64,000 bases of DNA from Plumapathes pennacea (Eukaryota; Cnidaria; Anthozoa; Antipatharia; Myriopathidae). The stretch lies in the NCBI GenBank assembly GCA_964036295.1, contig OZ038466.1, positions 22,868,597 to 22,932,596 on the forward strand. The letters are read 5' to 3'. A model generated the notes under the pieces. The model was not told the origin of the DNA. It searched no databases and saw only the letters and a list, made by a program, of their open reading frames with translations. The translations under genes were made by a program, and so were the position numbers. This document shows, in pieces, positions 35,640 through 64,000 of this stretch (position 1 is its first letter; each line of letters begins with the position of its first letter).

Positions 35640-38600
35640 GCTCGGACCGGAGCCTCAAATTGAATCTTTGCATCCTTTGCCAACGCCCTATGCTTCTGTT
35701 CAACGACAAGGGTGGGGTCGCGGCATATCGGTAGAGCGTCCTCAAAGCGAGTTTTCCGATTCTTTGCCAACGCCTAAGGCTTTTACTCAAAGCCTTCGCG
35801 AAGACGGAGTTTGCAGGAAAGAAGCGACGACAGCCTGATGAAGACGGGCACAGACTTTATGAACAGGATTTTTCGACAAACTCCGCATGTCGACTCCAAA
35901 GTTGGACAGGACACGAACCCTGAGGATGTGCGCCTGGTTAAGAAACTACGGAGCAAAAGTGAAAAACAAGAAGTGGACGATAATGAGTTAAAGGGAATTG
36001 GTTCGACACTTGCAATGATTAAACAACAAACGCAAAGACCATCAACTGACAGTTGAAACTGAAACAGCATCGCACGACAGCGAAATGATAAAACAGCATC
36101 AACTTATAGATTCTGAAATCCATCAAGGAGAAACAGATATCGGCAGCGAAAAGGCATCAAAGGAGAAAATTAATCCTGCCATTGGCAGTGATAAACTGAA
36201 GGAGGAGCCAAGAGGCAAAGCAGCTGGAATGAAATTAAATGGTGAAATGAAGGTTGCAATAATGGTTCTGCATTACACACAAGATTCGTCCCGGATAAAG
36301 ATGAAGACAGTCTATTTCACACCACGCCGCTGAAACCACCCGCATACTATGAACAGAAGGCCAAAACATCATTTTCACTGCTCATACGACAAAAACGAGA
36401 AGAGTCAGAGAAAGAAAACAAATCGACTCAAGCAGAAAGTCCCATAGTCCCGCTTTCACCGAACATTAGATGTCATGACGACCGTTCTTGTCGAGGAAGA
36501 TGCACACTGGAACGAGAGGCTGGTCCAACTAACGACTCCCTACAGTGTTTCTGTGACAATGAATGCGAGATATTCCAAGACTGCTGTGCAGATTACGATC
36601 ATCACTGTCCCACTAACCGCAATATGACGTCACCAGCATCACCGGATGTTCAGTGGCAGTGCGCTTTCCAAGGAGGGCGGGCTCACGACATGCAATTTGC
36701 CGGAATTTGGATGATCAGCTCGTGCCCAAAATACTGGCCAAATGAAATAGTGCCGTCCAACTGCCTTCTTTTTCCTGCAGACGCTGGGAAAGAATACAAT
36801 GGTGCCGTACCAGTGACCACTAGTAACGGCAAAACGTTCAAGAATCATTTCTGCGCTCAGTGCAACGGGATCAAACCAGACGACATGATCTATTATGATC
36901 TCTATTATCATAGTGAGTGTAAACAGGCAGAGCCGACTAATTGTCCCCTCCGGTGGATGCCGTCCAATGCCATTCACAGAAGATACTGCTTGAAGTTCTA
37001 CTCTTCTTGTTTGTCAAGTAACATTTCTGCGTATGTCCGATATCAGTGTAAAAATGGAACTTTCCGAGTTGTCAATTAGGAGAACAATAACTTTAAAAAT
37101 CGTTTCTGCTTGAAGTGTTATGGGCGATTTCGGTCAGTTCGGTACACTTGTGGTCCTGCGAAAATTGATATCCATAGGGGACCTTCTCGGGGATATTTTA
37201 TACAACTATTTAACAGACAAAAGGAACCTGTTAATTCTCATGAACCTGTTCGTGTCAGGCACTGCTCTGATCGAGAAGGGTTTGATTCCATCTTACAAAC
37301 TTGCCGCCCGGGTGTTATCAGCTCCTCAACAAACGTCAAGTTGGACAAGCTTGCTGTCGCCATCTGGATGAAACCTCACAACACGCAACCAAACCGAACT
37401 GCGTTCAATCAGCAACATATCTTGGATTCTCTGCTCACTTATTTTGGCATCCAACCCTCGCAAGTCTTCAATTTTCAAATCCAGAAAATGTTCAATGCTT
37501 TTATCGTCTCCTATAATCTGGACACACGACGAAGCGGAGAAACCAAATGACGAGAGACACTACAGCGCCTCACAGCATAGACAACCTCCTGAACTTTACA
37601 AGTATAATTACCGTCCAAATAGCCACTGACACGTACGACTTTTACAAAGTCACCTCCAGGTTATTTGCTTGTATCGATGAGCAAGAATTTCAGCCCAGTG
37701 AGTACACGGTACTGACGTCATCCCCGCCAGCGGTTTACATCAATCAGTCACGCGAGATATTTTACTCGTACCAGTACTTCGCCAACAGCACAAAGAATAC
37801 AGGTGATCGAGTCATTCCTGTTGGAAGCATTTTTGTGTGCAGACAGTACCTGACAAGCAATTGCTCCGGTGCGTACCTTCCTTTACAAGAAGACGAGTAT
37901 ACTGTCTTCCCAAACGGCTCTCTTTATCGTAACATTTCAAGAGAATGTTTCGCGCGTGGAAGTTACGATATACGAAACAAGACGGCGTGGATCTGCACCA
38001 ACTATTCTGTATCTTACTCAGAAACGCGCAAGACAAACAGCAACAACACCAATGATTTGGTGTTGAGTATCCTGCCCAACATCGGTTTGTCGCTTTCCAT
38101 CTTCTCCCTCGTCCTTTATCTGATGACTTATTGTCTTTTCTCTGAACTGCGCACATTGCCCGGTATCAACGTCATGAACCTGTCATTCTCGCTGCTGTTG
38201 TTACAGTCAGTCTGGTTTGCCACAAGCCAAACTCGTGTACAAATCCTGTGCACTTTCATTGCTGCGTTTATTCATTATTTGGCCCTGGTGTCTTTTACGT
38301 GGATGTCCATCATTGCATTTGACACGAGGCGAGCATTCTCTAGGTCCCGGATGAGATCGCAAAGGTCACGAACAGCCAAGATCCTCAGATTCATGGCTAT
38401 TGGCTGGATTACTGCTTTGATTTTCGTGATTATCTGTGTAGTCCTAGACCAAACCAAAGTGTTCAATATTGGTTATGGAGGAGAGAACAGTTGTTTTATT
38501 CAAAACAGCAGCGCGAGCGTGTTCTTGCTCGGTATTCCAGTTGCAATTTCCATTGCATTCAACGGCTTCTTCTTCGTCAAAATTGTGCTGATAATCAGAA

Positions 38601-38947
38601 AAATAAAAAAACAAACACGAGCTGTGGCCGGCCAGTCTCGAAACCAGAGGAGCTTTCAGCTTTATGCTCGACTTGCTGCCTTAATGGGCTTTACGTGGGT
38701 TTTCGGTTTCCTGGCGTTGCTTGTCAGTGAATACTTACTGTATCCGTTTGTAGTATTCACCACGCTCCAAGGGGTATACATAGCCGCGGTGTATGTTTTC
38801 AAAACTCAAGTGAAGGAGCTGTACATGCAACGCTTCTGTTCTAAAAGTGGTAGCGTGTCGACAGACCCTGTGGTCACAAAATGCGTTGTCAGTGTTGATC
38901 GTACAGAAAAGAACACAGGAACTGCGCATTTACAGACACGATTATAA
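35640..38947 (+). pseudogene. Degenerate SMB-7TM receptor copy, inverted relative to array
   Basis: Homologous along its length to the minus-strand receptors. The N-terminal region (SLPTPKAFTQSL, DVRLVKKLRSKS) is scattered over different frames. From 36246 one frame is open through LIRQKREE, the SMB domain (SCRGRC ... CDNECEIFQDCCADY) and the Cys-rich region, until an in-frame TAG at 37077-37079. The frame reopens after it but shifts near 37,520-37,545, where about 5 extra bases sit opposite the intact genes. From 37547 a 466-codon frame is intact through all seven membrane helices to the stop at 38947, and the end still reads QTRL. The 3' flank is not shared with the array, so this is an older copy. 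A truncated 7TM-only product cannot be excluded. Confidence 0.8.
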
Positions 38948-40901: not shown

Positions 40902-43817
40902 CTACAAACGCGTTTCTTTGTTAGCAGTTGAAGGATCCACACCCGTACGTTTTGTATTTGACACAACTATGCTTGACACATCGTTATTACTTTTATGACA
41001 AAAGCGTTTCATGTACAGCTCCTTCACTTGAGTTTTGAAAACATACACCGCGGCTATGTATACTCCTTGAAGCGTGTTGAATACAACAAACGGATACAGT
41101 AAGTATTCACTGATAAGAAAGGCCAGAAACCCGAAAATCCAAGTGAAGCCCGTGATGGCAGCAAGTCGAGCATAAAGCTGAAAGTTTCTCTGATTTCGAG
41201 ACTGGCCAGCCACGACCCGTGCTTGTTTCTTTACTTTTCTGATGATCACCACGGTTTTGACAAAGAAGAAGCCGTTGAATGCAATGGAAATTGCAACTGG
41301 AATACCGAGCAAGAACATGCTCGCGCTGCTGTTTTGAATAAAACAACTGTTCTCTCCTCCATAACCAATATTGAACACTTGGGTGTGGTCTAGGACTACA
41401 CAGATAATGACAAAAATTAAAGCAGGAATCCAGCCAATAGCCATGAATCTGAGGATCTTGGCTGTTCGTGACCTTTGCTGCCGTCTCATCCGGGTATTGC
41501 AAAATGCTCGCCACGTGTCAAATGCAATGATGGACATCCACGTAAAAGACACCAGGGCCAAATAATGAATAAACGCAGCGATGAAAGTGCACAGGATTTG
41601 TAAACGAGTTTGGCTTGTGGCAAACCAGACTGACTGTAACAACAGAAGCGAGAATGACAGGTTCATGACGTTGATACCGGGCAATGTGCGCAGTTCAGAG
41701 AAAAGACAGTAAGTCATCAGATAAAGGACGAGGGAGAATATGGAAAGCGACAGACCGATGTTGGACAGGATACTCAACACCAAATCATGGATGTTGTTGC
41801 CGCTTGTCTTGCGCGTTTTTGAGTAAGATGCAGAATATTTGATGCAGATCCATGCCGTCTTGTTTCGCACATCGTAACTTCCACGCGCGAAATATTCTCT
41901 TGAAATGTTACGATAAAGAGAGCCGTTTGGGAGGACAGTATACTCGTCTTCTTGTAAAAAACGGTATGCACCAGAGCAATTGCTTGTCAGATACTGTCTG
42001 CACACAAAAATGCTTCCAACAGGAATGACTTGATCACCTGTTCCATTTGTGCTGTTGGCGAAATACTGGTACGAATAAAATGTCTCGCGTGACTGATTGA
42101 CGTAAACCGCCGGTGGGAATGACTTCAGTACCGTGTACTCACTGGGCTGAAATTCTTGCTCATCGATACAAGCAAGTAGTCTGGAGGTGACTTTGTAAAT
42201 GTCGTACATGTCAGTGGCTACTTGAACGGTAATTACACTTGTAAAGTTTAGGAGACTATCAATGCTGTTAGGCGCTGTAGAAATGTTTCTCGTGATTTGG
42301 TTTTTCCACTTCATGTCCAGATCAAAGGACACAATAGAAGTGTTGAGTTTTTTCCGAATGTGAAAACCAAAGACTTGTGAGGGATAAATGCCAAAATTTG
42401 TAAACAGAGAATCCAAGATATGTTGCTGATCAAACGCAGTTCGGTTTGGTTGCGTTTCGTGAGGCTTCATCCAGATGGCGACAGCAAGCTTGTCTAACTT
42501 GACGTTTGGTGAGGAGCTGATAACTTCTGGGCGGCAACTTTGTTTATCGGGGCAGTGGCTTTTTTGTACAGGAGTGGGCTCCTCTTCTTTTTTAAATAAT
42601 GGCAAAAAATATGCCTTAACAATAAGTGGTGCGAATTCTTGTGGGCCACAAATGTACTTAAATTTTCCTTCACACTGCTGCAAGCAGAATCTATTTCTAA
42701 AGTTCTGGTACTTCTCGATATCGCTGACAACTCTGATTATTCCGTTTTCACACTGATATCGGACATGTGCAGACATGTTACTCGAAACACAGGAAGACTC
42801 CAAATTCAAGCAGTATCTTCTGTGAGTGCCATTGGCCGGCATCCATTTGAGGGGCCGACAGTTAACTTTGTCTGGTTCTGGTTCTTTACAATCAGACTTG
42901 TAGTAGAGACCATAATATATCATGTCGTCTGTTTTGATCCCGTTGCACTGAGCGCAGAAACGATTCTTGAACGTTTTGCCGTTGCTGGTGGTCACTGGTA
43001 CGTCACCATTGTATCCTTTCCCAGCGTCTGCAGGAAAATGAAGGCAGTTGGACCGCACTTTATCATCTGGCCAATTCCTCGGGCACGAGCTGATCATCCA
43101 GATTCCAGCATTTTTTTCCATGGGAAGTTCTCGCCATCCTTTGGAAACACACTGCCACTGAACATTCGGGGATGCTGGTGACGTCTTATTGTTAGCGGGG
43201 CAGTGATCATCATAATCTGCACAGCAGTCTTGGAACATGTCGCATTCATTGTCACAGAAACACTGTAGGGAGTCGTTAGCTGGACCAGGCTCTCGTTCTT
43301 GTGTGCACCTGCCTCGACATGAAAGCTTATCCTCACATGCGATGTTCACTGGGCGAGATTCTTGTTGGCTTGATTTGCTTGTTTTCCCTTGTTCTTCTCG
43401 TCGTTGTCGTATGAGTTGTGTGAATGATGTTCGTGGCTCACTCTTAGTTCGAACCACAACTTCAGCAGGTTGTTTCTTGAGACCCAAAACGTCTTTGCTT
43501 CGAGAACTAATACCCCGTATTTTCTTGAGTACGGCGATGCGCTGCGTGTTCTCTACGGCGTTCTTATTCTGTCCAAATTCCATGTTGCGATGAAGAGTTT
43601 TCCCAAAAAGGCCATGCTTGACTACTTCTGAGAACATTTGTTCAACGCTTTCCTTCTTGATAGCTCCGGCTTCATGAAATCGTTGATGAGAAGCATTGGG
43701 CGTTGACCGCAAAGGGCGAGAGGATTTACTTTCGTGATCTGACAATCTCCCGGCCTTGATCACCAGCAGAAGGGCTGAGACAACCAGTCCTGCTTTTATC
43801 AGAGCCAGTTTGCGCAT
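40902..43817 (-). CDS. SMB-domain Methuselah-like 7TM receptor, type A copy 1
   Basis: Single uninterrupted exon of 971 residues. A signal peptide (MRKLALIKAG plus hydrophobic LVVSALLLVI) leads a basic N-terminal region. The SMB domain is at ~161-208 with all eight SMB cysteines (SCRGRC ... QCFCDNECDMFQDCCADY ... C). A Cys-rich ectodomain (~209-430) includes FKNRFCAQCNGIK and HRRYC. An N-glycosylation-rich membrane-proximal region has CRQYLTSNCSG, with no GPS cleavage motif. The 7TM core is at ~679-938 with conserved Cys in TM3 (ILCTF) and ECL2 (NSCFIQ) and LYARLAAITGFTWIFGF in TM6. The tail ends KETRL. Compared with its paralogues it lacks about 7 residues (VFDSILQ) after CPDKQ and has an extra Gln beside a Cys in CLQQCEG. 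Class-B/adhesion-like fold by similarity; ligand unknown. Confidence 0.88.
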   Translation of the reverse strand: MRKLALIKAGLVVSALLLVIKAGRLSDHESKSSRPLRSTPNASHQRFHEAGAIKKESVEQMFSEVVKHGLFGKTLHRNMEFGQNKNAVENTQRIAVLKKIRGISSRSKDVLGLKKQPAEVVVRTKSEPRTSFTQLIRQRREEQGKTSKSSQQESRPVNIACEDKLSCRGRCTQEREPGPANDSLQCFCDNECDMFQDCCADYDDHCPANNKTSPASPNVQWQCVSKGWRELPMEKNAGIWMISSCPRNWPDDKVRSNCLHFPADAGKGYNGDVPVTTSNGKTFKNRFCAQCNGIKTDDMIYYGLYYKSDCKEPEPDKVNCRPLKWMPANGTHRRYCLNLESSCVSSNMSAHVRYQCENGIIRVVSDIEKYQNFRNRFCLQQCEGKFKYICGPQEFAPLIVKAYFLPLFKKEEEPTPVQKSHCPDKQSCRPEVISSSPNVKLDKLAVAIWMKPHETQPNRTAFDQQHILDSLFTNFGIYPSQVFGFHIRKKLNTSIVSFDLDMKWKNQITRNISTAPNSIDSLLNFTSVITVQVATDMYDIYKVTSRLLACIDEQEFQPSEYTVLKSFPPAVYVNQSRETFYSYQYFANSTNGTGDQVIPVGSIFVCRQYLTSNCSGAYRFLQEDEYTVLPNGSLYRNISREYFARGSYDVRNKTAWICIKYSASYSKTRKTSGNNIHDLVLSILSNIGLSLSIFSLVLYLMTYCLFSELRTLPGINVMNLSFSLLLLQSVWFATSQTRLQILCTFIAAFIHYLALVSFTWMSIIAFDTWRAFCNTRMRRQQRSRTAKILRFMAIGWIPALIFVIICVVLDHTQVFNIGYGGENSCFIQNSSASMFLLGIPVAISIAFNGFFFVKTVVIIRKVKKQARVVAGQSRNQRNFQLYARLAAITGFTWIFGFLAFLISEYLLYPFVVFNTLQGVYIAAVYVFKTQVKELYMKRFCHKSNNDVSSIVVSNTKRTGVDPSTANKETRL

Positions 43818-45379: not shown

Positions 45380-48346
45380 CTACAAACGCGTTTCTGTGTT
45401 AGCAATTGAAGGATCCACACCTGTACTTTTTGTATTTGACACAACTATGCTTGACACATCGCTATTACTTTTATGACAAAAGCGTTTCATGTACAGCTCC
45501 TTCACTTGAGTTTTGAAAACATACACCGCGGCTATGTATACCCCTTGGAGCGTGGTGAATACTACAAACGGATACAGTAAGTATTCACTGACAAGCAACG
45601 CCAGGAAACCGAAAATCCACGTAAAGCCCATGATGGCAGCAAGTCGAGCATAAAGCTGAAAGCTCCTCTGGTTTCGAGACTGGCCGGCCACAGCTCGTGT
45701 TTGTTTTTTTATTTTTCTGATTATCAGCACAATTTTGACGAAGAAGAAGCCGTTGAATGCAATGGAAATTGCAATTGGGATACCGAGCAAGAACATGCTC
45801 GCGCTGCTGTTTTGAATAAAACAACTGTTCTCTCCTCCATAACCAATACTGAACACTTGGGTTTGGTCTAGCACTACACAGATAATCACGAAAATCAAAG
45901 CAGGAATCCAGCCAATAGCCATGAATCTGAGGATCTTGGCTTTTCGTGACCTCTGCTGCTGTCTCATCCGGGTATTGGAAAATGCTCGCCACGTGTCAAA
46001 TGCAATGATGGACATCCACGTAAAAGACACCAGGGTCAAATAATGAATGAATGCAGCGATGAAAGTGCACAGGATTTGTAAACGAGTTTGGCTTGTGGCA
46101 AACCAGACTGACTGTAACAACAGCAGCGAGAATGACAGGTTCATGACGTTGATACCGGGCAATGTGCGCAGTTCAGAGAAAAGACAGTAAGTCATCAGAT
46201 AAAGGACGAGGAAGAATATGGAAAGCGACAGACCGATGTTGGACAGGATACTCAACACCAAATCATGGATGTTGTTGCCGCTTGTCTTGCGCGTTTTTGA
46301 GTAAGATGCAGAATAGTTGGTGCAGATCCATGCCGTCTTGTTTCGCATATTGTAACTTCCACGCGCGAAATATTCTCTTGAAATGTTACGATAAAGAGAG
46401 CCATTTGGGAAGACAGTATACTCGTCTTCTTGTAAAGAAAGGTACGCACCGGAGCAATTGCTTGTCAGATACTGTCTGCACACAACAATTGTTCCAACAG
46501 GAATGACTTGATCACCTGTTTCCTTTGTGCTGTTGGCGAAGTATTGGTACGAGTAAAATGTCTCACGTGACCTATTGATGTAAACCGCTGGCGGGGATGA
46601 CGTCAGTACCGTGTACTCACTTGGCTGAAATTCTTGCTCATCGATACAAGCAAGTAACCTGGAGGTGACTTTGTAAATGTCGTACATGTCAGTGGCTACT
46701 TGGACGGTAATTACACTTGTAAAGTTTAGGAGACTATCAATGCTGTGAGGCGCTATAGAAAAGTCTCTCGTGATTTGGTTTTTCCACTTCATGTCCAGAT
46801 CAAAGGAGACGACAGAGGTGTTGAGCATTTTCTGGATGTGAAAATTGAAGACTTGCGAGGGTTGGATGCCAAAATTAGTGAGCAGAGAATCCAAGATATG
46901 TTGCTGATTGAACGCAGTTCGGTTTGGTTTCGTGTTGTGAGGTTTCATCCAGATGGCGACAGCAAGCTTGTCTAACTTGACGTTTCTTGAGGAGCTGATA
47001 ACTCCTGGGCGGCAAGTTTGTAAGATGGAATCAAACACTTGTTTATCGGGACAGTATACTGTATGTACAATAGTGGGTCTTACAGCGAGTTCCGGGTTTT
47101 GGATAAAAAGTTCTGAAAAAAATGCCGGTGGCTCGGGTTGTAAGTGGCCCACGTCGACCATTCCTGCAGATACCGCTACTTGTGGGCCGCAACTGTACGG
47201 AAATGCTCCTTCACACTGCAAGCAGAATTTATTTTTATAGTTTCTGAAACCCATGACATAACTGACAACTCTGAATGTTCCGTTTTCACACTGATATCGG
47301 ACAAGCGCAGACGTGTTACTTGAGAAACAAGAAGATTGCAAATTCAAGCAGTATCTTCTGTGAGTGTCTTTGGCCGGCGTCCATTTGAGGGAACAGTTAA
47401 ATTTGTCTGCTTGGTCACAATCAGAACTGTAGTTAAGCTTAACATAATAAATCATGTCCGCTGGTTTGATCCCGTTGCACTGAGCGCAGAAACGATTTTT
47501 GAACGTTTCGCCTTTGCTGGTGGTCACTGGTACGGCACCATCGTATCCTTTCCCAGAGTCTGGGGGAAAATGAAGGCAGTTGGACCGCACTTCATCAATT
47601 GGCCAATTCCTCGGGCACGAGCCGATCATCCAGATCCCAGCAATTTCTTTCATAGGAAGTTCTCGCCATCCTTTGGAAACACACTGCCACTGAACATCCG
47701 GGGATGCTGGTGACGTCTTATTGTTAGCGGGGCAGTGATCATCATAATCTGCACAGCAGTCTTGGAACATGTCGCATTCATTGTCACAAAAACACTGTAG
47801 AGAGTCCTCAGTTGGACCAGGCTCTCGTTGTTGTGTGCATCTGCCCCGACATGAAAGCTTGTCCTCACATGGGATGTTTCCTGCGCGAGAGTCTTGTCGA
47901 CTCGAATTGCTTTTTTCCCCTTTTTCTTCTCGTCGTTGCCGTATGAGTTGTGTGAATGATGTTCTTGGCTCGTTCTTACTTTGAGGCACAAACTCAGCAG
48001 GTTGTTTATTGAGACCCAAAACGTTTTTCCTGCGAGACCTTCCCCGTAATTTCTTGAGTACGGCGATGCGCTGCGTGTTCTCTACGGCGTTCTTATTCTG
48101 TCCAAATTCCATGTTGCAATGCAGAGTTTTCCCAGAAAGGCCATGTTTGACTACTTCTGAGAACATCTGTTCATCGTTTTGCTTCTTGATAGCTCTGGCT
48201 TCACGAAATCGTTGATGAGAAGCATTGGGCGTTGACTGCAGGGGATGGGAGGATTTACTTTTGTGATCTGACGAACTCCCGACCTTGATTATCAGCAGAA
48301 GGGCGGAGACAACCAGTCCTGCTTTTATCAGAGCCAGTTTTGGCAT
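45380..48346 (-). CDS. SMB-domain Methuselah-like 7TM receptor, type B copy 1
   Basis: Single exon, 988 residues from the ATG at 48346. An in-frame ATG at 48412 would add 22 residues, but the chosen start (MPKLALIKAG) aligns with the only possible start of A1 and puts the signal peptide at the N-terminus. SMB domain ~160-206; Cys-rich ectodomain including THRRYC and CLQCEGAFPYSCGP; a type-B-specific linker (VDVGHLQPEPPAFFSEL); 7TM ~696-955; cytoplasmic tail with SSIVVSNTKSTGVD ending TETRL. About 98% identical to B2 (roughly 19 differences by eye). No introns, although all recognised non-receptor genes here are split. Confidence 0.88.
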   Translation of the reverse strand: MPKLALIKAGLVVSALLLIIKVGSSSDHKSKSSHPLQSTPNASHQRFREARAIKKQNDEQMFSEVVKHGLSGKTLHCNMEFGQNKNAVENTQRIAVLKKLRGRSRRKNVLGLNKQPAEFVPQSKNEPRTSFTQLIRQRREEKGEKSNSSRQDSRAGNIPCEDKLSCRGRCTQQREPGPTEDSLQCFCDNECDMFQDCCADYDDHCPANNKTSPASPDVQWQCVSKGWRELPMKEIAGIWMIGSCPRNWPIDEVRSNCLHFPPDSGKGYDGAVPVTTSKGETFKNRFCAQCNGIKPADMIYYVKLNYSSDCDQADKFNCSLKWTPAKDTHRRYCLNLQSSCFSSNTSALVRYQCENGTFRVVSYVMGFRNYKNKFCLQCEGAFPYSCGPQVAVSAGMVDVGHLQPEPPAFFSELFIQNPELAVRPTIVHTVYCPDKQVFDSILQTCRPGVISSSRNVKLDKLAVAIWMKPHNTKPNRTAFNQQHILDSLLTNFGIQPSQVFNFHIQKMLNTSVVSFDLDMKWKNQITRDFSIAPHSIDSLLNFTSVITVQVATDMYDIYKVTSRLLACIDEQEFQPSEYTVLTSSPPAVYINRSRETFYSYQYFANSTKETGDQVIPVGTIVVCRQYLTSNCSGAYLSLQEDEYTVFPNGSLYRNISREYFARGSYNMRNKTAWICTNYSASYSKTRKTSGNNIHDLVLSILSNIGLSLSIFFLVLYLMTYCLFSELRTLPGINVMNLSFSLLLLQSVWFATSQTRLQILCTFIAAFIHYLTLVSFTWMSIIAFDTWRAFSNTRMRQQQRSRKAKILRFMAIGWIPALIFVIICVVLDQTQVFSIGYGGENSCFIQNSSASMFLLGIPIAISIAFNGFFFVKIVLIIRKIKKQTRAVAGQSRNQRSFQLYARLAAIMGFTWIFGFLALLVSEYLLYPFVVFTTLQGVYIAAVYVFKTQVKELYMKRFCHKSNSDVSSIVVSNTKSTGVDPSIANTETRL

Positions 48347-50106
48347 AGTGGTGTCGCACGATGTTCGTGTTGCGTTTTTGAAGAAGCGCATTAGATTTAA
48401 ATTTTTGATCAATGTGAGCTAATAATACTGACACGCGATCTATGTAAATTTTACACGGCGTTAATTAAAGTAATACTTAGAAATTTAAAGAAAGGAAACA
48501 ACATGTGAGGAGTTTTTAAGCTAAAAAAAATAGGCAGTTTCGAAGAGAAACATGTTTGGTGAACTGTATGGCCTGGTTTGGTAAAACAAATTATGGCCCG
48601 GTAGCACTGGGAAGTTTAGTCGATAATAACTCATCATCGAGAGCAATATGACGGCTTCTTTCATGTTTGGTAGCAACTTGCTGACATATAATTTTGGTGG
48701 CAAGCGCTGGGCATGTTTGTGACTTCAAATGATACAAATGTCGATATTAATGTCGTTAAAGTTACGAGTGCGACCGGAGAAAGAATTTAAGAAAAGCATC
48801 ATTGTTGCTTGTTTTGTTTTCACGTATTAATGCAATACTTTGATCGATGGATATAGAACTGTCAACATTTTTGTTAGAGCTCATTGGTGTCATGCCACAA
48901 TTTCTATATATCGATGTGACGCCGTAGTTGATGTTTTGGCATTAACACGCGCCCTTCGTCTTAATTGCCTTTTCACAATGAACTCACTGTAGTAAAAACA
49001 TGCATCGATCAATTCCAGTTGTTACCATCTCGGCCTGTGTATCGGGGACGGGAAATTTGTACAGCAACGTGTTACCCCGGTGGCGGGGCTGGAGGCAAGG
49101 AATTGATCATAAAACCCAAGATGGTCGCCAAAAAGAGAGCATTTGCAGAAACAAAAAATATGTTTTAAAAGTGAAGAAGTGAAACTCAAAATGGGCATAG
49201 AACCGACACGGTATAGTTTGAACTCCAAGGGAAGTCATCACTTCGACAACTGATCGCAAACACGGCCAGTTTCCCGTTTCTTTTGGGGAATTTGTAGTCC
49301 CATGATTTTTTTACGAACTCCCGGTGGTCGGAGGGGGGATGGTAAAGAACAGCTGGAATTGATCGGTGTATAAACGCCAATTTTTTTTAAAAGAAAAAGA
49401 CAGTCCATCTACGACTAGAGGTATGGAAGAAATTCACCACACACAATACAACTTACATTTTTATTGTTATTTACAAAAACAAAGAACCAGTCACGTTCGG
49501 TGTGCTCAGGTCGACTGTAATCTCTATGAGACTAATCTGCAGTGTATGCAGGACAAAACCAAACTAAGGCATACATGTCAATTATGCCAGAAAATAAAAA
49601 CAAGCAAACTGAGACGTTTTCATGTTTTTCTACCGCAGCAGTTGTGTCATGGGGAAAATAGCTGCTCCGAGGTCTTGTCACGGTTTTCTGCAAGAGGATG
49701 ACGTGCACAGGAAGCAAAAATTAGAGGATCTATTGATCAATATTTTTAATGATCACACTAACGTAAGTAAATATTAAGTTGTATTACTTCTAGTTCTGCC
49801 ACTGCCACAACGACTTGTAGTAAATGTACGAGACCCGACCGCATCATTAAGTAACGATTCCACAGCGTTTTGTACCGGCCAACTAAAAACTTTTAGTGTT
49901 TTTAGAAACCCTTGCAGCTTTACCTTGTCTCAAACTGCTTCTCGACGCCTCGGACTTTTGTTCAGGAGTTGTGCAAGACGACAAAGCCCAGATACCACGC
50001 ATTTTGAAGTTCTCTACAGTTTGACCGACTAAGAAGAGGAAGAAATATAGACAACTCGTCAGCTTAAGGACTTCGTTGTTGTTTGAAAACGAGCAATTGA
50101 TTCAGA
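48347..50106. repeat. Type B 5'-flank duplicate, copy 1
   Basis: Upstream region of B1, shared with 58,825-61,631 upstream of B2 except for a ~1-kb segment present only there. Includes a 92-codon plus-strand ORF (49423-49701) repeated in the other copy, not recognised as any family. Confidence 0.85.
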
Positions 50107-51065: not shown

Positions 51066-54000
51066 CTACAAACGCGTTTCTGTGTTAGCAGTTGAAGGAT
51101 CCACACCCGTACGTTTTGTATTTGACACAACTATGCTTGACACATCGTTATTATTTTTATGACAAAAGCGTTTCATATACAGCTCCTTCACTTGAGTTTT
51201 GAAAACATACACCGCGGCTATGTATACCCCTTGGAGCGTGTTGAATACTACAAACGGATACAGTAAGTATTCACTGATAAGAAACGCCAGGAAACCGAAA
51301 ATCCAAGTGAAGCCCGTTATGGCAGCAAGTCGAGCATAAAGCTGAAAGTTTCTCTGATTTCGAGACTGGCAAGCCACAGCCCGTGTTTGTTTCGTTATTT
51401 TTCTGATTATCAGCACGATTTTGACGAAGAAGAAGCCGTTGAATGCAATGGAAATTGCAACTGGGATACCGAGCAAGAACATGCTCGCGCTGCTGTTTTC
51501 AATAAAACAACTGTTCTCTCCTCCATAACCAATATTGAACACTTGGGTGTGGTCTAGCACTACACAGATAATCACGAAAATCAAAGCAGGAATCCAGCCA
51601 ATAGCCATGAATCTGAGGATCTTGGCTTTTCGTGACCTCTGCTGCTGTCTCATACGGGTATTGGAAAATGCTCGCCACGTGTCAAATGCAATGATGGACA
51701 TCCACGTAAAAGACACCAGGGCCAAGTAATGAATAAACGCAGCAATGAAAGTGCACAGGATTTGTACACGAGTTTGGCTTGTGGCAAACCAGACTGACTG
51801 TAACAACAGCAGCGAGAATGACAGGTTCATGACGTTGATACCGGGCAATGTGCGCAGTTCAGAGAAAAGACAGTAAGTCATCAGATAAAGGACGAGAGAG
51901 AAGATGGAAAGCGACAGACCGATGTTGGACAGGATACTCAACACCAAGTCATGGATGTTGTTGCCGCTTGTCTTGCGCGTTTCCACGTAAGATGCAGAAT
52001 AGTTGGTGCAGATCCACGCCGTCTTGTTTCGCACATCGTAACTTCCTCGCGCGAAATATTCTCTTGAAATGTTACGATAAAGAGAGCCATTTGGGAAGAC
52101 AGTATACTCGTCTTCTTGTAAAGAAAGGTATGCACCAGAACAATTGCTTGTCAGATACTGTCTGCACACAAAAATGCTTCCACCAGGAATTACTTGATCA
52201 CCTGTTCCATTTGTACTGTTGGCGAAGTACTGGTACGAGTAAAATGTCTCACGTGACTGATTGATGTAAACCGCCGGCGGGAATGACTTCAGTACCGTGT
52301 ACTCACTGGGCTGAAATTCTTGCTCATCGATACAAGCAAGTAGTCTGGAGGTGACTTTGTAAATGTCGTACATGTCAGTGGCTACTTGGACGGTAATTAC
52401 ACTTGTAAAGTTTAGGAGACTATCAATGCTGTGAGGCGCTGTAGAATTGTCTCTCGTGATTTGATTTTTCCACTTCATGTCCAGATCAAAGGAGACAATA
52501 GAAGTGTTGAGTTTTTTCCGAATGTGAAAACCAAAGACTTGTGAGGGACGAATGCCAAAATTTGCTAGCAAAGAATTCAAGATATGTTGCTGATTGAACG
52601 CAGTTCGGTTTGGTTTCGTTTTGTGAGGTTTCATCCAGATGGCGACAGCAAGCATGTCCAACTTGACGTTTGTTGAGGAGCTGATAACTCCTGGGCGGCA
52701 AGTTTGCAAGCTGGAATCAAACACCTGTTTATCGGAGCAGTGACTTACTTGTATAATAGCCTGTTCCTCTTGTTTTTTAAATAGTGGCAAAAAATATCCC
52801 CTGGGCAGTTCCGGACCTCGACCAGGTGGTCCAGGTGGTCCAGCTTCTCCAGAGGGCACCTGTTCTCCATGTGACCCTTTTTGTGGACCACACCTGTACT
52901 CAAATGCTCCATCACACTGCAAGCAAAATTTATTTTCAAAGTTCTGGGATTCCATGAAATCACTGACAGCTTGACCAGGTTGCTGAGCTGCTCCAAGGGG
53001 CCCCGATGCCCCAGAAGGTCCCGATGCTCCAGGTAGTCCAGGTGCTCCAGGGGGTCCCCGAGCTCCAGGCGGTCCCCATGCCCCAGGGGGTCCCCATGCT
53101 CCAGGGGGCCCCGATGCTTCAGGTACCGCTCCTTTTGGACCACAACTGTACATAAATTCTCCTTCACACTGCAAGCAGAATTTATTTTTAAAGTTCCGTG
53201 ACCCCTTGGCATCACTGACAACTCTGAATGTTCCGTTTTCACACCTATATCGGACATCCGCAGACGTGTTACTCGAGAAACAAGAAGACTGTAAATTCAA
53301 GCGGTATCTTCTGTGAGTGCCATTGGCCGGCTTCCATTTGAGGGGACAGTTAAATTCGTCTGGTTCTTTACAATCAGACCTGTAGTAGAGAACATAATAG
53401 ATCATGTCAGCTGGTTTGATCCCGTTGCACTGAGCGCAGAAACGATTCTTGAACGTTTTGCCGTTGCTGGTGGTCACTGGTACGGCACCATCGTATCCTT
53501 TCCCAGCGTCTGCAGGAAAATGAAGGCAGTTGGACCGCACTTTATCAACTGGCCAATTCCTCGGGCACGAGCTGATCATCCAGATCCCAGCAATTTCTTT
53601 CATGAGAAGTTCTCGCCCTCCTCGAGAAACACACTGCCACTGAACATCCGGGGATGCTGGTGACGTCTTATTGTTAGCGGGGCAGTGATCATCATAATCT
53701 GCACAGCAGTCTTGGAACATCTCGCATTCATTGTCACAGAAACACTGTAGGGAGTCTTTAGTTGAACCAGGTTCTCGTTGTTGTGTGCACCTGCCTCGAC
53801 ATGAAAGCTTATCCTCACATGCGATGTTTACTGCGCGAGAGTCTTGTTGGCTTAAATTGCTTGTTTTCCCTTGTTCTTCTCGTCGTTGTCGTATGAGTTG
53901 TGTGAATGATGTTCGTGGCTCACTCTTAGTTCGAACCACAGCTTCAGCAGGTTGTTTCTTGAGACCCAAAACGTCTTTGCTTCGAGAACTTATACCCCGT

Positions 54001-54299
54001 ATTTTCTTGAGTACGGCGATGCGCTGCGTGTTCTCTGCGGCGTTCTTATTCTGTCCAAATTCCATGTTGCGAAGCAGAGTTTTCCCAGATAGGCCATGTT
54101 TGGCTACTTCTGAGAACATCTGTTCATCGTTTTCCTTCTTGATAGATCCGGCTTCACGAAATCGTTGACGAGAAGCATTGGGCGTTGACCGCAAAGGATC
54201 GGAGGATTTACTTTCGTGATATGACGAACTCCCGACCTTGATCACCAGCAGAAGGGCTGAGACAACCAGTCCTGCTTTTATCAGAGCCAGTTTGCGCAT
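51066..54299 (-). CDS. SMB 7TM receptor, type A copy 2, with collagen-like ectodomain insert
   Basis: Single exon, 1,077 residues from the ATG at 54299 (an upstream in-frame ATG at 54398 would add 33). Signal peptide and SMB domain (~161-207) as in A1. The ectodomain differs: after the Cys module ending YSCGP there are about 13 uninterrupted Gly-X-Y triplets (~396-438; GPPGAWGPPGAW ...), a second copy of the Cys module (NFENKFCLQCDG ... YRCGP, ~453-472) and a short GPPGPPGRG (~484-497). These ~90 extra residues are absent from all other copies. 7TM ~785-1044 with the usual TM3 and ECL2 cysteines; the tail ends TETRL. The frame is fully preserved, arguing that the insert is translated. Confidence 0.87.
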   Translation of the reverse strand: MRKLALIKAGLVVSALLLVIKVGSSSYHESKSSDPLRSTPNASRQRFREAGSIKKENDEQMFSEVAKHGLSGKTLLRNMEFGQNKNAAENTQRIAVLKKIRGISSRSKDVLGLKKQPAEAVVRTKSEPRTSFTQLIRQRREEQGKTSNLSQQDSRAVNIACEDKLSCRGRCTQQREPGSTKDSLQCFCDNECEMFQDCCADYDDHCPANNKTSPASPDVQWQCVSRGGRELLMKEIAGIWMISSCPRNWPVDKVRSNCLHFPADAGKGYDGAVPVTTSNGKTFKNRFCAQCNGIKPADMIYYVLYYRSDCKEPDEFNCPLKWKPANGTHRRYRLNLQSSCFSSNTSADVRYRCENGTFRVVSDAKGSRNFKNKFCLQCEGEFMYSCGPKGAVPEASGPPGAWGPPGAWGPPGARGPPGAPGLPGASGPSGASGPLGAAQQPGQAVSDFMESQNFENKFCLQCDGAFEYRCGPQKGSHGEQVPSGEAGPPGPPGRGPELPRGYFLPLFKKQEEQAIIQVSHCSDKQVFDSSLQTCRPGVISSSTNVKLDMLAVAIWMKPHKTKPNRTAFNQQHILNSLLANFGIRPSQVFGFHIRKKLNTSIVSFDLDMKWKNQITRDNSTAPHSIDSLLNFTSVITVQVATDMYDIYKVTSRLLACIDEQEFQPSEYTVLKSFPPAVYINQSRETFYSYQYFANSTNGTGDQVIPGGSIFVCRQYLTSNCSGAYLSLQEDEYTVFPNGSLYRNISREYFARGSYDVRNKTAWICTNYSASYVETRKTSGNNIHDLVLSILSNIGLSLSIFSLVLYLMTYCLFSELRTLPGINVMNLSFSLLLLQSVWFATSQTRVQILCTFIAAFIHYLALVSFTWMSIIAFDTWRAFSNTRMRQQQRSRKAKILRFMAIGWIPALIFVIICVVLDHTQVFNIGYGGENSCFIENSSASMFLLGIPVAISIAFNGFFFVKIVLIIRKITKQTRAVACQSRNQRNFQLYARLAAITGFTWIFGFLAFLISEYLLYPFVVFNTLQGVYIAAVYVFKTQVKELYMKRFCHKNNNDVSSIVVSNTKRTGVDPSTANTETRL
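52985..53115 (-). repeat. 18-bp coding repeat encoding Gly-X-Y collagen segment
   Basis: The unit GCTCCAGGGGGTCCCCAT (plus strand) recurs about seven times with substitutions, encoding GPPGA(W/R/P/S) hexapeptides in receptor A2. It looks like a minisatellite expansion kept in frame. Confidence 0.9.
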
Positions 54300-54873
54300 A
54301 GTGGTGTCGCACGAAATAATGTTCGTGTTGCGTTTTTGAAGAAGGGCATTAGATATAAATTGTTGATCAAAGTGAGAGCTTATAATCCTGACAATCAATC
54401 TATGTAAATTTTAGACGGCGTTAATGAAAGTAATACTGGGATATTTAAAGAATGGAAACAACATGTGTGGAGTTCTTTAAGCTGAAAAAAAAAAATTAAC
54501 AGTATCGAAGAGAAACTCATGTTTGGTAGACTGTATGACCTAGTTTGGTAAAAGAACTTAGAATTTAAGAAAAGAATCATCATTGTTCCTTTTGTTCTCA
54601 CATAATGCAATACTTTGATCGATGGATCTAGATGACTGTCAACATTTGTGTTATAGCTGATTGGTGTCATGCCGCCAACAACCTCTAAGTATATCGTTGT
54701 GACGCCGTTATTGATGTTTTTGCATTAGCAGGCGCCCTTCGTCTTAATTGCCTTTTAACAATTACACATCCTTTAGTATAAACATATATCGATCAATTCC
54801 AGCTGTTACCTTCTCCCCTCTCCCCTCTCCTCTTCGGGGGCATAAAAACCCAAGATGCCCGCCAAAAGGAGAG
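54300..54873. repeat. Type A 5'-flank duplicate, copy 2
   Basis: Upstream of A2 and nearly identical to 43,818-44,376, including the minus-strand TATAAG about 80 bp before the start. Confidence 0.85.
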
Positions 54874-55857
54874 TTCGCCTCAATTAGTCCGCACTTCTAC
54901 CGACTGGTGCATTTGCAAAAAACCAAAACTATATTGCAAAGTGAATGGGTGAAACTCAAAACGGACATAGAACCGACACGGCATAGTGTTTGAACTCCAA
55001 GGCAAGTCATCACTTCCACAACCGATCGCATACTCGGCCAGTTTCCGTCTCTTTTGCCCGGGGAGCGAGAATTCGTAATTTCTGAGTGCGTCGCTGGTGT
55101 GTGGTTCTTTACACAGGTATGGCTCTTGACTAACTCTACGAGTGGACTAAATGAGGCAATGTGCTGTTAAAAGGTGATTAGTGGTCTTATGATCTTTTGT
55201 CCGCGGTTACTAAATGTCATAACGCCACTTCTCCCCATTCCTCTCATCTCCCCACCCGTCACATTGAAAGCGGTCTGTTATTATTATAAGCAACGGCCCA
55301 CTCCTTCCACCACAAAGTATACATATACGTACACACGGACAAGGTTTTAATATTTTACACAATAGAACTCGATCTTAAAGGGACACTTTGTTAATCATTA
55401 TGGACACCCGTTATCACGGTTATTTTGTCCTGACACTGGATAATACGGACAACGGACACTTTCTCGTGTGCGGTAGTACAGACACTGTGTCTGGTCCCGA
55501 TATTCAAAAAACTCTACGACCACACTAAGTCTACATGGTACACCATATGGATTTACAGCGCCTTATGAAGAATATCATAACTTTACATTCTCTTACGAAC
55601 CTAGTAGTTTAAGACGTTTTTTGATTCCTGATAAAGTTATATTGTATACATTAATATTGTTCATTATAGTCGTAATTTTAACACAATTACAAGCAATAAT
55701 AGGAAACGATGGCAGTTTACAGTTTGCAACCCAGCCAGTCTAAGTAATCGGACAGTCACTGTTTACTGACCCGAGAACAAACACTGTAACGACAATTCAA
55801 CGTTCAACGGAAGCATACAGTTTATTGTGAACAGCCGCGCTATCAGTAATAATCTGT
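54874..55857. repeat. Receptor 3'-flank duplicate, copy 4 (B2)
   Basis: Starts at GTTCGCCTCAATTAGTCCGC and ends at the B2 stop. Minus-strand AATAAA at 55826-55821. Confidence 0.9.
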
Positions 55858-58824
55858 CTACAAACGCGTTTCTGTGTTAGCAATTGAAGGATCCACACCT
55901 GTACTTTTTGTATTTGACACAACTATGCTTGACACATCGCTATTACTTTTATGACAAAAGCGTTTCATGTACAGCTCCTTCACTTGAGTTTTGAAAACAT
56001 ACACCGCGGCTATGTATACCCCTTGGAGCGTGGTGAATACTACAAACGGATAAAGTAAGTATTCACTGACAAGCAACGCCAGGAAACCGAAAATCCAAGT
56101 GAAGCCCATGATGGCAGCAAGTCGAGCATAAAGCTGAAAGCTCCTCTGGTTTCGAGACTGGCCGGCCACAGCTCGTGTTTGTTTTTTTATTTTTCTGATT
56201 ATCAGTACAATTTTGACGAAGAAGAAGCCGTTGAATGCAATGGAAATTGCAATTGGGATACCGAGCAAGAACATGCTCGCGCTGCTGTTTTGAATAAAAC
56301 AACTCTTCTCTCCTCCATAACCAATACTGAACACTTGGGTTTGGTCTAGGACTACACAGATAATCACGAAAATCAAAGCAGGAATCCAGCCAATAGCCAT
56401 GAATCTGAGGATCTTGGCTTTTCGTGACCTCTGCTGCTGTCTCATCCGGGTATTGGAAAATGCTCGCCACGTGTCAAATGCAATGATGGACATCCACGTA
56501 AAAGACACCAGAGCCAAATAATGAATGAATGCAGCGATGAAAGTGCACAGAATTTGTACACGAGTTTGGCTTGTGGCAAACCAGACTGACTGTAACAACA
56601 GCAGCGAGAATGACAGGTTCATGACGTTGATACCGGGCAATGTGCGCAGTTCAGAGAAAAGACAATAAGTCAGCAGGTAAAGGACGAGAGAGAAGATGGA
56701 AAGCGACAGACCGATGTTGGACAGGATACTCAACACCAAATCATGGATGTTGTTGCCGCTTGTCTTGCGCGTTTTTGAGTAAGATACAGAATAGTTGGTG
56801 CAGATCCATGCCGTCTTGTTTCGCATATTGTAACTTCCAGGCGCGAAATATTCTCTTGAAATGTTACGATAAAGAGAGCCATTTGGGAAGACAGTATACT
56901 CGTCTTCTTGTAAAGAAAGGTACGCACCGGAGCAATTGCTTGTCAGATACTGTCTGCACACAACAATTGTTCCAACAGGAATGACTCGATCACCTGTTTC
57001 CTTTGTGCTGTTGGCGAAGTATTGGTACGAGTAAAATGTCTCACGTGACCTATTGATGTAAACCGCTGGCGGGGATGACGTCAGTATCGTGTACTCACTG
57101 GGCTGAAATTCTTGCTCATCGATACAAGCAAGTAACCTGGAGGTGACTTTGTAAATGTCGTACATGTCAGTGGCTACTTGAACGGTAATTACACTTGTAA
57201 AGTTTAGGAGACTATCAATGCTGTGAGGCGCTATAGAAAAGTCTCTCGTGATTTGGTTTTTCCACTTCATGTCCAGATCAAAGGAGACGACAGAGGTGTT
57301 GAGCATTTTCTGGATGTGAAAATTGAAGACTTGCGAGGGTTGGATGCCAAAATTAGTAAGCAGAGAATCCAAGATATGTTGCTGATTGAACGCAGTTCGG
57401 TTTGGTTTCGTGTTGTGAGGTTTCATCCAGATGGCGACAGCAAGTTTGTCCAACTTGACGTTTCTTGAGGAGCTGATAACTCCTGGGCGGCAAGTTTTTA
57501 AGATGGAATCAAACACTTGTTTATCGGGACAGTATACTGTATGTACAATAGTGGGTCTTACAGCGAGTTCCGGGTTTTGGATGAAAAGTTCTGAAAAAAA
57601 TGCCGGTGGCTCGGGTTGTAAGTGGCCCACGTCGACCATTCCTGCAGATACCGCTACTTGTGGGCCGCAACTGTACGGAAATGCTCCTTCACACTGCAAG
57701 CAGAATTTATTTTTATAGTTTCTGAAACCCATGACATAACTGACAACTCTGAATGTTCCGTTTTCACACTGATATCGGACAAGCGCAGACGTGTTACTTG
57801 AGAAACAAGAAGATTGCAAATTCAAGCAGTATCTTCTGTGAGTGTCTTTGGCCGGCGTCCATTTGAGGGAACAGTTAAATTTGTCTGGTTGGTCACAATC
57901 AGAACTGTAGTTAAGCTTAACATAATAAATCATGTCCGCTGGTTTGATCCCGTTGCACTGAGCGCAGAAACGATTTTTGAACGTTTCGCCGTTGCTGGTG
58001 GTCACTGGTACGGCACCATCGTATCCTTTCCCAGAGTCTGGGGGAAAATGAAGGCAGTTGGACCGCACTTCATCAACTGGCCAATTCCTCGGGCACGAGC
58101 CGATCATCCAGATCCCAGCAATTTCTTTCATGGGAAGTTCTCGCCATCCTTTGGAAACACACTGCCACTGAACATCCGGGGATGCTGGTGACGTCTTATT
58201 GTTAGCGGGGCAGTGATCATCATAATCTGCACAGCAGTCTTGGAACATGTCGCATTCATTGTCACAAAAACACTGTAGAGAGTCCTCAGTTGGACCAGGC
58301 TCTCGTTGTTGTGTGCATCTGCCCCGACATGAAAGCTTGTCCTCACATGGGATGTTTCCTGCGCGAGAGTCTTGTCGACTCGAATTGCTTTTTTCCCCGT
58401 TTTCTTCTCGTCGTTGCCGTATGAGTTGTGTGAATGATGTTCTTGGCTCGTTCTTACTTTGAGGCACAAACTCAGCAGGTTGTTTATTGAGACCCAAAAC
58501 CTTTTTCCTGCGAGACCTTCCCCGTAATTTCTTGAGTACGGCGATGCGCTGCGTGTTCTTTACGGCGTTCTTATTCTGTCCAAATTCCATGTTGCGATGC
58601 AGAGTTTTCCCAGAAAGGCCATGTTTGACTACTTCTGAGAACATCTGTTCATCGTTTTGCTTCTTGATAGCTCTGGCTTCATGAAATCGTTGATGAGAAG
58701 CATTGGGCGTTGACTGCAGGGGATGGGAGGATTTACTTTTGTGATCTGACGAACTCCCGACCTTGATTATCAGCAGAAGGGCGGAGACAACCAGTCCAGC
58801 TTTTATCAGAGCCAGTTTTGGCAT
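55858..58824 (-). CDS. SMB-domain Methuselah-like 7TM receptor, type B copy 2
   Basis: Single exon, 988 residues from the ATG at 58824 (a 22-residue upstream extension from 58890 is open). Same layout as B1: signal peptide, SMB ~160-206, Cys-rich ectodomain, linker with GHLQPEPPAFFSEL, 7TM ~696-955, tail ending TETRL. Differences from B1 are mostly conservative single substitutions, spread over ectodomain and membrane regions. They include ECL2 GEKSC for GENSC and YLLTY for YLMTY, both shared with the next copy to the right. Confidence 0.88.
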   Translation of the reverse strand: MPKLALIKAGLVVSALLLIIKVGSSSDHKSKSSHPLQSTPNASHQRFHEARAIKKQNDEQMFSEVVKHGLSGKTLHRNMEFGQNKNAVKNTQRIAVLKKLRGRSRRKKVLGLNKQPAEFVPQSKNEPRTSFTQLIRQRREENGEKSNSSRQDSRAGNIPCEDKLSCRGRCTQQREPGPTEDSLQCFCDNECDMFQDCCADYDDHCPANNKTSPASPDVQWQCVSKGWRELPMKEIAGIWMIGSCPRNWPVDEVRSNCLHFPPDSGKGYDGAVPVTTSNGETFKNRFCAQCNGIKPADMIYYVKLNYSSDCDQPDKFNCSLKWTPAKDTHRRYCLNLQSSCFSSNTSALVRYQCENGTFRVVSYVMGFRNYKNKFCLQCEGAFPYSCGPQVAVSAGMVDVGHLQPEPPAFFSELFIQNPELAVRPTIVHTVYCPDKQVFDSILKTCRPGVISSSRNVKLDKLAVAIWMKPHNTKPNRTAFNQQHILDSLLTNFGIQPSQVFNFHIQKMLNTSVVSFDLDMKWKNQITRDFSIAPHSIDSLLNFTSVITVQVATDMYDIYKVTSRLLACIDEQEFQPSEYTILTSSPPAVYINRSRETFYSYQYFANSTKETGDRVIPVGTIVVCRQYLTSNCSGAYLSLQEDEYTVFPNGSLYRNISREYFAPGSYNMRNKTAWICTNYSVSYSKTRKTSGNNIHDLVLSILSNIGLSLSIFSLVLYLLTYCLFSELRTLPGINVMNLSFSLLLLQSVWFATSQTRVQILCTFIAAFIHYLALVSFTWMSIIAFDTWRAFSNTRMRQQQRSRKAKILRFMAIGWIPALIFVIICVVLDQTQVFSIGYGGEKSCFIQNSSASMFLLGIPIAISIAFNGFFFVKIVLIIRKIKKQTRAVAGQSRNQRSFQLYARLAAIMGFTWIFGFLALLVSEYLLYPFVVFTTLQGVYIAAVYVFKTQVKELYMKRFCHKSNSDVSSIVVSNTKSTGVDPSIANTETRL

Positions 58825-62612: not shown

Positions 62613-64000
62613 CTACAAACGCGTTTCTGTGTTAGCAGTTGAAGGATCTACACCCGTACTTTTTGTATTTGACACAACTATGCTTGACACATCGCTATTA
62701 CTTTTATGACAAAAGCGTTTCATGTACAGCTCCTTCACTTGAGTTTTGAAAACATACACCGCTGCTATGTATACCCCTTGGAGCGTAGTGAATACTACAA
62801 ACGGATACAGTAAGTATTCACTGATAAGAAACCCCAGGAAACCGAAAATCCAAGTGAAGCCCGTTATGGCAGCAAGTCGAGCATAAAGCTGAAAGTTTCT
62901 CTGATTTCGAGACTGGCAAGCCACAGCCTGTGTTTGTTTCGTTATTTTTCTGATTATCAGCACGGTTTTGACGAAGAAGAAGCCGTTGAATGCAATGGAA
63001 ATTGCAACTGGAATACCGAGCAAGAACATGCTCGCGCTGCTGTTTTGAATAAAACAACTCTTCTCTCCTCCATAACCAATGTTGAACACTTGGGTTTGGT
63101 CTAGGACTACACAGATAATCACGAAAATCAAAGCAGGAATCCAGCCAATAGCCATGAATCTGAGGATCTTGGCTTTTCGTGACCTCTGCTGCTGTCTCAT
63201 GCGGGTATTGGAAAATGCTCGCCACGTGTCAAATGCAATGATGGACATCCACGTAAAAGACACCAGGGCCAAATAATGAATGAATGCAGCGATGAAAGTG
63301 CACAGGATTTGTACACGAGTTTGGCTTGTGGAAAACCAGACTGACTGTAACAACAGCAGCGAGAATGACAGGTTCATGACGTTGATACCGGGCAATGTGC
63401 GCAGTTCAGAGAAAAGACAATAAGTCAGCAGGTAAAGGACGAGAGAGAAGATGGAAAGCGACAGACCGATGTTGGACAGGATACTCAACACCAAATCATG
63501 GATGTTGTTGCCGCTTGTCTTGCGCGTTTTTGAGTAAGATACAGAATAGTTGGTGCAGATCCATGCCGTCTTGTTTCGCATATTGTAACTTCCAGGCGCG
63601 AAATATTCTCTTGAAATGTTACGATAAAGAGAGCCGTTTGGGAAGACAGTATACTCGTCTTCTTGTAGAGAAAGGTACGCACCAGAGCAATTGCTTGTCA
63701 GATACTGTCTGCACACAACAATTGTTCCAACAGGAATGACTCGATCACCTGTTTCCTTTGTGCTGTTGGCGAAGTATTGGTACGAGTAAAATGTCTCACG
63801 TGACCTATTGATGTAAACCGCTGGCGGGGATGACGTCAGTATCGTGTACTCACTTGGCTGAAATTCTTGCTCATCGATACAAACAAGTAACCTGGAGGTG
63901 ACTTTGTAAATGTCGTACATGTCAGTGGCTACTTGGACGGTAATTACACTTTTAAAGTTTAGGAGACTATCAATGCTGTGAGGCGCTATAGAAAAGTCCC
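62613..64000 (-). CDS. SMB-family 7TM receptor, third-unit copy (5' part outside window)
   Basis: C-terminal ~460 residues of another array member, open to the window edge. Membrane-proximal ectodomain with CRQYLTSNCSG, 7TM core and tail ending TETRL. Sequence before TM5 is B2-like (FAPGSYNMRNK, YLLTY, GEKSC), TM5-TM6 is A2-like (KITKQT, VACQSRNQRNF, AITGFTWIFGF, FLISEY) and the tail is B-like (KSNSDV, KSTGVD). It occupies the position expected for a type A gene in the A-B repeat. Confidence 0.85.
   Translation of the reverse strand, partial: DFSIAPHSIDSLLNFKSVITVQVATDMYDIYKVTSRLLVCIDEQEFQPSEYTILTSSPPAVYINRSRETFYSYQYFANSTKETGDRVIPVGTIVVCRQYLTSNCSGAYLSLQEDEYTVFPNGSLYRNISREYFAPGSYNMRNKTAWICTNYSVSYSKTRKTSGNNIHDLVLSILSNIGLSLSIFSLVLYLLTYCLFSELRTLPGINVMNLSFSLLLLQSVWFSTSQTRVQILCTFIAAFIHYLALVSFTWMSIIAFDTWRAFSNTRMRQQQRSRKAKILRFMAIGWIPALIFVIICVVLDQTQVFNIGYGGEKSCFIQNSSASMFLLGIPVAISIAFNGFFFVKTVLIIRKITKQTQAVACQSRNQRNFQLYARLAAITGFTWIFGFLGFLISEYLLYPFVVFTTLQGVYIAAVYVFKTQVKELYMKRFCHKSNSDVSSIVVSNTKSTGVDPSTANTETRL

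Follow-up and report, generated by a model that had tools for sequence, protein, structure and literature searches.

Receptor A2 and its domains

The window analysed here, the whole 64,000-nucleotide stretch of the Plumapathes pennacea genome, carries several related genes for 7TM receptors, one of which, receptor A2, contains a collagen-like segment in its ectodomain. The positions of the genes and of the features of A2 are collected in Table 1. A2 lies in an open frame that spans positions 51066-54410 of the minus strand. Its N-terminal residues look like a signal peptide when judged by eye, and the product would presumably be expressed and secreted to the cell surface as a receptor. The somatomedin-B profile scores 32.9 bits in A2 against a Pfam cut-off of 23.1, and the somatomedin B of vitronectin was also matched. 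The 7tm_2 match is in line with an adhesion GPCR, and when the family profile is compared with the PDB, the chains nearest to its 7TM part are likewise those of adhesion GPCRs, ADGRG2 being the first. The receptor-ectodomain setting of the collagen-like run is thereby supported. For A1, B1, B2, C and a distant relative on contig C11, Pfam gives 7tm_2 and somatomedin B and no other family at E <= 1.

Table 1. Receptor genes of the cluster lying in the window and features of receptor A2 (window positions)
Feature	Position	Strand	Description
Receptor A2 CDS	51066..54299	-	1077 aa and stop, single open frame; ATG at 54299, TAG stop
Somatomedin-B domain of A2	53679..53804	-	residues 166-207; Pfam E 8.1e-8; PDB vitronectin chains
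Residue 333 codon of A2	53301..53303	-	Arg; Cys in A1, B1, B2, C and the C11 relative (RYC -> RYR)
Cys module 1	53136..53216	-	single-copy in every paralogue
18-bp tandem array	52989..53123	-	Tandem Repeats Finder: 7.5 copies, 77% matches, score 149
Long Gly-X-Y run of A2	52986..53111	-	14 unbroken triplets, residues 397-438, seven 18-bp units
Cys module 2	52884..52964	-	additional copy carried by A2; 83% identical to module 1 at the DNA level over 27 codons
Second short Gly-X-Y block of A2	52815..52850	-	GEAGPPGPPGRG, 4 triplets
7TM domain of A2	51219..51944	-	secretin/adhesion class; residues 786-1027; Pfam 7tm_2 E 4.4e-26; ADGRG2, ADGRL3 chains
Paralogue D	36246..38947	+ (opposite strand)	broken frame; no Gly-X-Y run
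Paralogue A1	40902..43817	-	no Gly-X-Y run; linker 29 aa
Paralogue B1	45380..48346	-	no Gly-X-Y run; linker 43 aa
Paralogue B2	55858..58824	-	no Gly-X-Y run; linker 43 aa
Paralogue B3	62613..63998, cut by window end; whole = C5:22931212-22934287 (L023)	-	frame broken near linker; no Gly-X-Y run

Gly-X-Y blocks and cysteine modules

In gene order, 5' to 3', the insert region consists of Cys module 1, the long Gly-X-Y run, Cys module 2 and the short block GEAGPPGPPGRG. An initial annotation of this DNA had described about 13 unbroken Gly-X-Y triplets in A2 and a second short block, bracketing a duplicated Cys module, with all of these parts in frame and built from an 18-bp repeat. This anatomy is real, and both modules and both Gly-X-Y blocks share the frame of A2; the count of triplets is 14, read from 53111 to 52986 as GPPGAWGPPGAWGPPGARGPPGAPGLPGASGPSGASGPLGAA. 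The 18-bp repeat accounts for the long run, whereas the short block is built differently and contains two 9-bp GGACCACCT units. The seven 18-bp units of the core array have no internal indels and show 19 differences from the unit consensus. An alternative period of 54 bp was also reported by Tandem Repeats Finder over the array, with a score of 170.

With its 14 triplets the run has the uninterrupted Gly-X-Y character of collagen-domain proteins. The Pfam Collagen family matches residues 395-443 with an E value of 1.2e-5 and 25.4 bits, which falls just short of the cut-off of 27.2. When the A2 protein was shuffled 1000 times, the longest run was from 1 to 5 triplets, and 5 was reached in two shuffles. 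Proline occupies 12 of the 28 X and Y positions (43%), six of them in Y, only one of the 28 is charged, and two Gly-Ala-Trp triplets lie inside the run. NCBIfam models of bacterial collagen-like adhesins also fall on this stretch; they score far under their cut-offs and were put down to Gly-X-Y similarity, not to kinship.

The modules of A2 have the pattern FCLQC...CGP, and no proline run adjoins the triplets. Between modules 1 and 2 dS is 0.27, similar to the value between module 1 and the other copies, which means either that the duplication is not very recent or that the region changes fast. The A1 counterpart depends on the method, since blastn extends A1 into module 1 and MAFFT places A1 on module 2. 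Module 2 adds three cysteines, and the ectodomain of A2 contains 30 cysteines, as if 28 plus 3 minus 1; A1 and B2 each have 28, and B1 and C each have 29. Our guess is that a cysteine of the extra module might pair with the partner orphaned by the change at residue 333.

Receptor family and uniqueness of the run

Searching the whole genome (290 Mb, 24 contigs) with A2, in a search that scored 43 of the 66 candidates, gave at least 21 matches, and the family size of eight is therefore a lower bound. Fifteen of the 21 matches fall on the seven cluster copies, all on one chromosome (C5:22904701-22939135), and on the distant relative (L026, C11:15076910-15079717), a single open frame of 936 aa that is 29-30% identical to A2. 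The other six are confined to query residues 661-882, that is, to the region before the 7TM domain and its first part. Within the cluster, the frames of A1, B1, A2, B2 and C are intact and those of D and B3, two of the seven, are broken. No relatives of A2 were found in viral contigs or in prokaryote genome contigs.

The earlier statement that A2 alone carries the run holds among the eight family members found: a six-frame reading for runs of at least five Gly-X-Y triplets, which took in window positions 36001-64000 and the loci L023, L025, L026 and L027 (C, B3, D, the C11 relative and A2), finds only that of A2. The genome has at least 149 matches to 7tm_2, and the uniqueness applies to the family of eight.

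Divergence of the linker and selection

The linker is defined here as the stretch from the CGP of the Cys module to the next C[PS]DK. It is 34 residues long in C and 132 in A2 when counted from module 1, or 48 when counted from module 2 (Table 1 gives the lengths of A1, B1 and B2). In windows of 25 columns, the mean pairwise identity of the intact cluster copies is 0.00-0.29 across the linker, compared with 0.80-1.00 in most other windows, the four exceptions being 0.56, 0.58, 0.64 and 0.76. It is in this part, the site of the insert, that the intact copies of the cluster diverge most.

A segmental duplication of 6.4 kb (42638-49047 versus 53132-59526, 96.3% match), which pairs the 5' half of A1 and the whole of B1 with the corresponding A2/B2 block, ends at the linker. 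Between the blocks, gene B diverges by 1.2%, the sequence upstream of B by 1.0%, that between A and B by 4.4% and the 113-base stretch ahead of the start codon of A by 0.9%. Higher values are seen in the 5' coding part of A (7.3%), in its 3' coding part (5.0%) and in the 150 bases downstream of A (13.1%). Such uneven divergence indicates that parts of the blocks have different histories, and gene conversion among the copies is one possible cause.

When A1 and A2 are compared, dN is 0.316 and dS 0.343 over the 60 codons that align between A2 residues 361 and 522, and dN is near dS in several windows of the ectodomain. In the windows within 770-1069 dN is 0.007-0.053 and dS 0.096-0.184. The 7TM part of A2 is under constraint: over the last 300 aligned codons, which are mostly 7TM, the dN/dS of A2 is 0.16 with A1, 0.27 with B1, 0.22 with B2 and 0.29 with C.

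For the glycines of the run, selection is marginal. Positions 1 and 2 of the glycine codons are changed in 0 of 28 cases in the core array, compared with 19 of 98 for the remaining positions (p 0.005, a post hoc test). When the upstream half unit is included the counts become 1 of 30 and 19 of 108 (p 0.037), and with one degenerate downstream unit in addition 3 of 34 and 27 of 122 (p 0.061). As the test is post hoc and weakens with the edge units, it is not used as proof of selection.

Origin of the insert

The origin of the run by in-frame minisatellite expansion, as had been proposed for this DNA, is well supported by the seven 18-bp units that follow each other in frame without internal indels, and no donor was seen at the DNA level. 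In a genome search that skipped simple repeats, the DNA of the insert matched only the single module of the other cluster copies. A search with a generic GPPGAP repeat, in which 150 of 439 candidates were scored, gave only A2 at E <= 0.01 and no minicollagens. At the DNA level, the B3 linker (AVSEGMV) aligns with the start of the A2 linker (AVPEASG), which suggests that the repeat grew from a pre-existing linker.

At the protein level, a search of the genome with the insert, in which 114 candidates were scored, gave at least 36 matches at E <= 1; 15 collagen loci outside the receptor cluster were examined. Outside the cluster, the best matches fall on collagen exons, many of which belong to genes that combine collagen with Ig-like domains. 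These exons (collagen-Ig clusters on C9 and C10, and exons on C2, C3, C8 and C12) have Gly-X-Y runs of 8-36 triplets, mostly with 23-46% charged X/Y positions and 16-38% proline, and no DNA relation to A2 was seen. In the two collagen-Ig clusters (C10:6024784-6083905 and C9:13625480-13678704) a run of 25 triplets is followed by what resembles, by eye, an Ig-like domain.

Of the loci examined, the C2 exon L056 (C2:8564800-8565500; 31 triplets, 48% proline, 13% charged X/Y, E 0.14), a lower-ranked match, comes closest to A2 in composition. It was not accepted as a donor, as no word longer than 8 bases is common to it and the DNA of the insert; its glycine codons are mostly GGT, versus GGA and GGG in A2. 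The presence of this proline-rich exon is evidence against a simple origin in place and makes an old donor, diverged past recognition at the DNA level, conceivable. We consider such a donor unlikely.

Interpretation of the insert

With modest confidence, we read the A2 insert as a proline-rich, collagen-like spacer that arose by duplication of a module and minisatellite expansion in a tolerant linker. A2 belongs to a tandem series of adhesion-type 7TM receptors with somatomedin B and is encoded in one open frame, and the site of change would be the freely diverging linker between the last Cys module and the region before the 7TM domain. The linker of A2 was presumably enlarged in frame by the duplicated Cys module together with its short Gly-Pro tail, and the 18-bp unit probably expanded to give the 14 Gly-X-Y triplets. 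The product would most likely be a stiff spacer of the polyproline-II type, shifting the part with the Cys modules and somatomedin B away from the membrane, and a short triple helix could also form where three chains meet.

The initial annotation had gone further in proposing that a collagen helix imposes trimerisation or matrix binding on the receptor, which we treat as a possibility and not as a finding. A genuine short collagen triple helix, with A2 trimeric like a membrane-tethered minicollagen and stabilised by prolyl hydroxylation and perhaps also by disulphides of the flanking Cys modules, seems to us a doubtful though serious candidate. Its length is suitable. Minicollagens have 12-16 Gly-X-Y triplets between Cys-rich domains (PMC4863159, PMC7981951), similar to the 14 triplets of A2 with a Cys module on either side, and their Cys domain trimerises (PMC4863159). 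A (Gly-Pro-Hyp)n peptide self-assembles when n > 6 (PMC7824840). The proline content, with six of the residues in the Y position where they could be hydroxylated, fits such a helix as well as it does a spacer. So does the length of the run, and the glycines of the core array are all unreplaced, as a helix would require; these points count against the spacer reading. The even number of cysteines in the ectodomain also agrees with disulphides. However, Pfam names no trimerisation domain in A2, the minicollagen cysteine pattern is missing, and the constraint on glycine becomes marginal once the edges of the array are counted. In addition, a large ectodomain extends on both sides of the run, and the linker in which the run lies varies freely among the copies, in sequence as well as in length. 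The two Gly-Ala-Trp triplets are unfavourable as well, tryptophan being a bad case among Y-site residues for the stability of the collagen helix. Replacements at the Y site cost the helix from 0 to 21 degrees C (PMC7824840). The bolder proposal, in which a 7TM receptor evolved a minicollagen-like stalk of its own from a minisatellite and became a disulphide-braced trimer, is unlikely.

It is also conceivable, though to our minds improbable, that the minisatellite expanded neutrally in a redundant, degenerating copy and has no functional consequence. The broken frames of two of the seven cluster copies point in this direction, as do the ectodomain windows where dN approaches dS and the loss of the cysteine at residue 333, a residue still present in the distant relative and in every intact copy but A2. 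Against this stand the uninterrupted frame of 1077 codons in A2, the low dN/dS values given above for the last 300 aligned codons, and the absence of any frameshift or stop from the seven repeats. Absence of the insert from the mature protein, as an intron or an error of assembly, is very improbable. The insert is known from a single assembly, and according to the alignment its removal would leave A2 with a linker like that of A1. However, both modules and both Gly-X-Y blocks keep the frame, the coding strand has no GTRAG, the only donor word scored, at 52751-53200, and neither the window nor the loci L023, L025, L026 and L027 contain any N. The spacer reading is kept here as the preferred one.

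Comparison with known receptors and collagens

A2 is similar to adhesion (class B2) GPCRs such as ADGRG2 and ADGRL3 in its 7TM domain, as judged from the PDB matches, and in its long modular ectodomain. It differs from them in that no GPS or GAIN family was recognised by Pfam at E <= 1 in the six intact members (A2, B2, A1, B1, C and the C11 relative); a diverged GAIN fold beyond the recognition of Pfam may be present. In the part of an adhesion GPCR review that could be searched (PMC13197933), the terms collagen-like, collagen domain and collagen repeat do not occur. The adhesion GPCR expansion of amphioxus (PMC2246102), which features somatomedin B and kringle domains, shares with the A2 family the presence of somatomedin B in the ectodomains of an expanded 7TM group. 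The word collagen is absent from the text of that paper. Among the titles and abstract openings listed from the open-licence literature, no 7TM receptor with a collagen segment of its own was found.

Cnidarian minicollagens resemble A2 in the short run between Cys-rich modules. However, their cysteine pattern CX3CX3CX3CX3CC and their polyproline flanks are both missing in A2, and a minicollagen is a small capsule protein, whereas A2 is a 7TM receptor. A minicollagen origin of the run was rejected; the length fits and the cysteine pattern does not.

If the triple helix were true, A2 would represent a GPCR whose oligomerisation relies on a domain born locally from a simple repeat and not by domain shuffling, and if A2 were a trimer, the insert-free sister genes of the same cluster would be natural controls. 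Even as a mere spacer, the insert would illustrate how a collagen-like segment can arise within a receptor when a repeat expands in a linker that changes fast.

Other features of the window

Two further tandem repeats lie in the window. A 57-bp minisatellite of 37 copies occupies positions 1009-3118 and is open in several frames on both strands, and a 106-bp repeat extends from 16811 to 17800, with 9.3 copies and 91% matches. Between the two, large open frames of the minus strand (10397-13932) resemble, by eye, TPR repeats followed by a CHAT-type domain.
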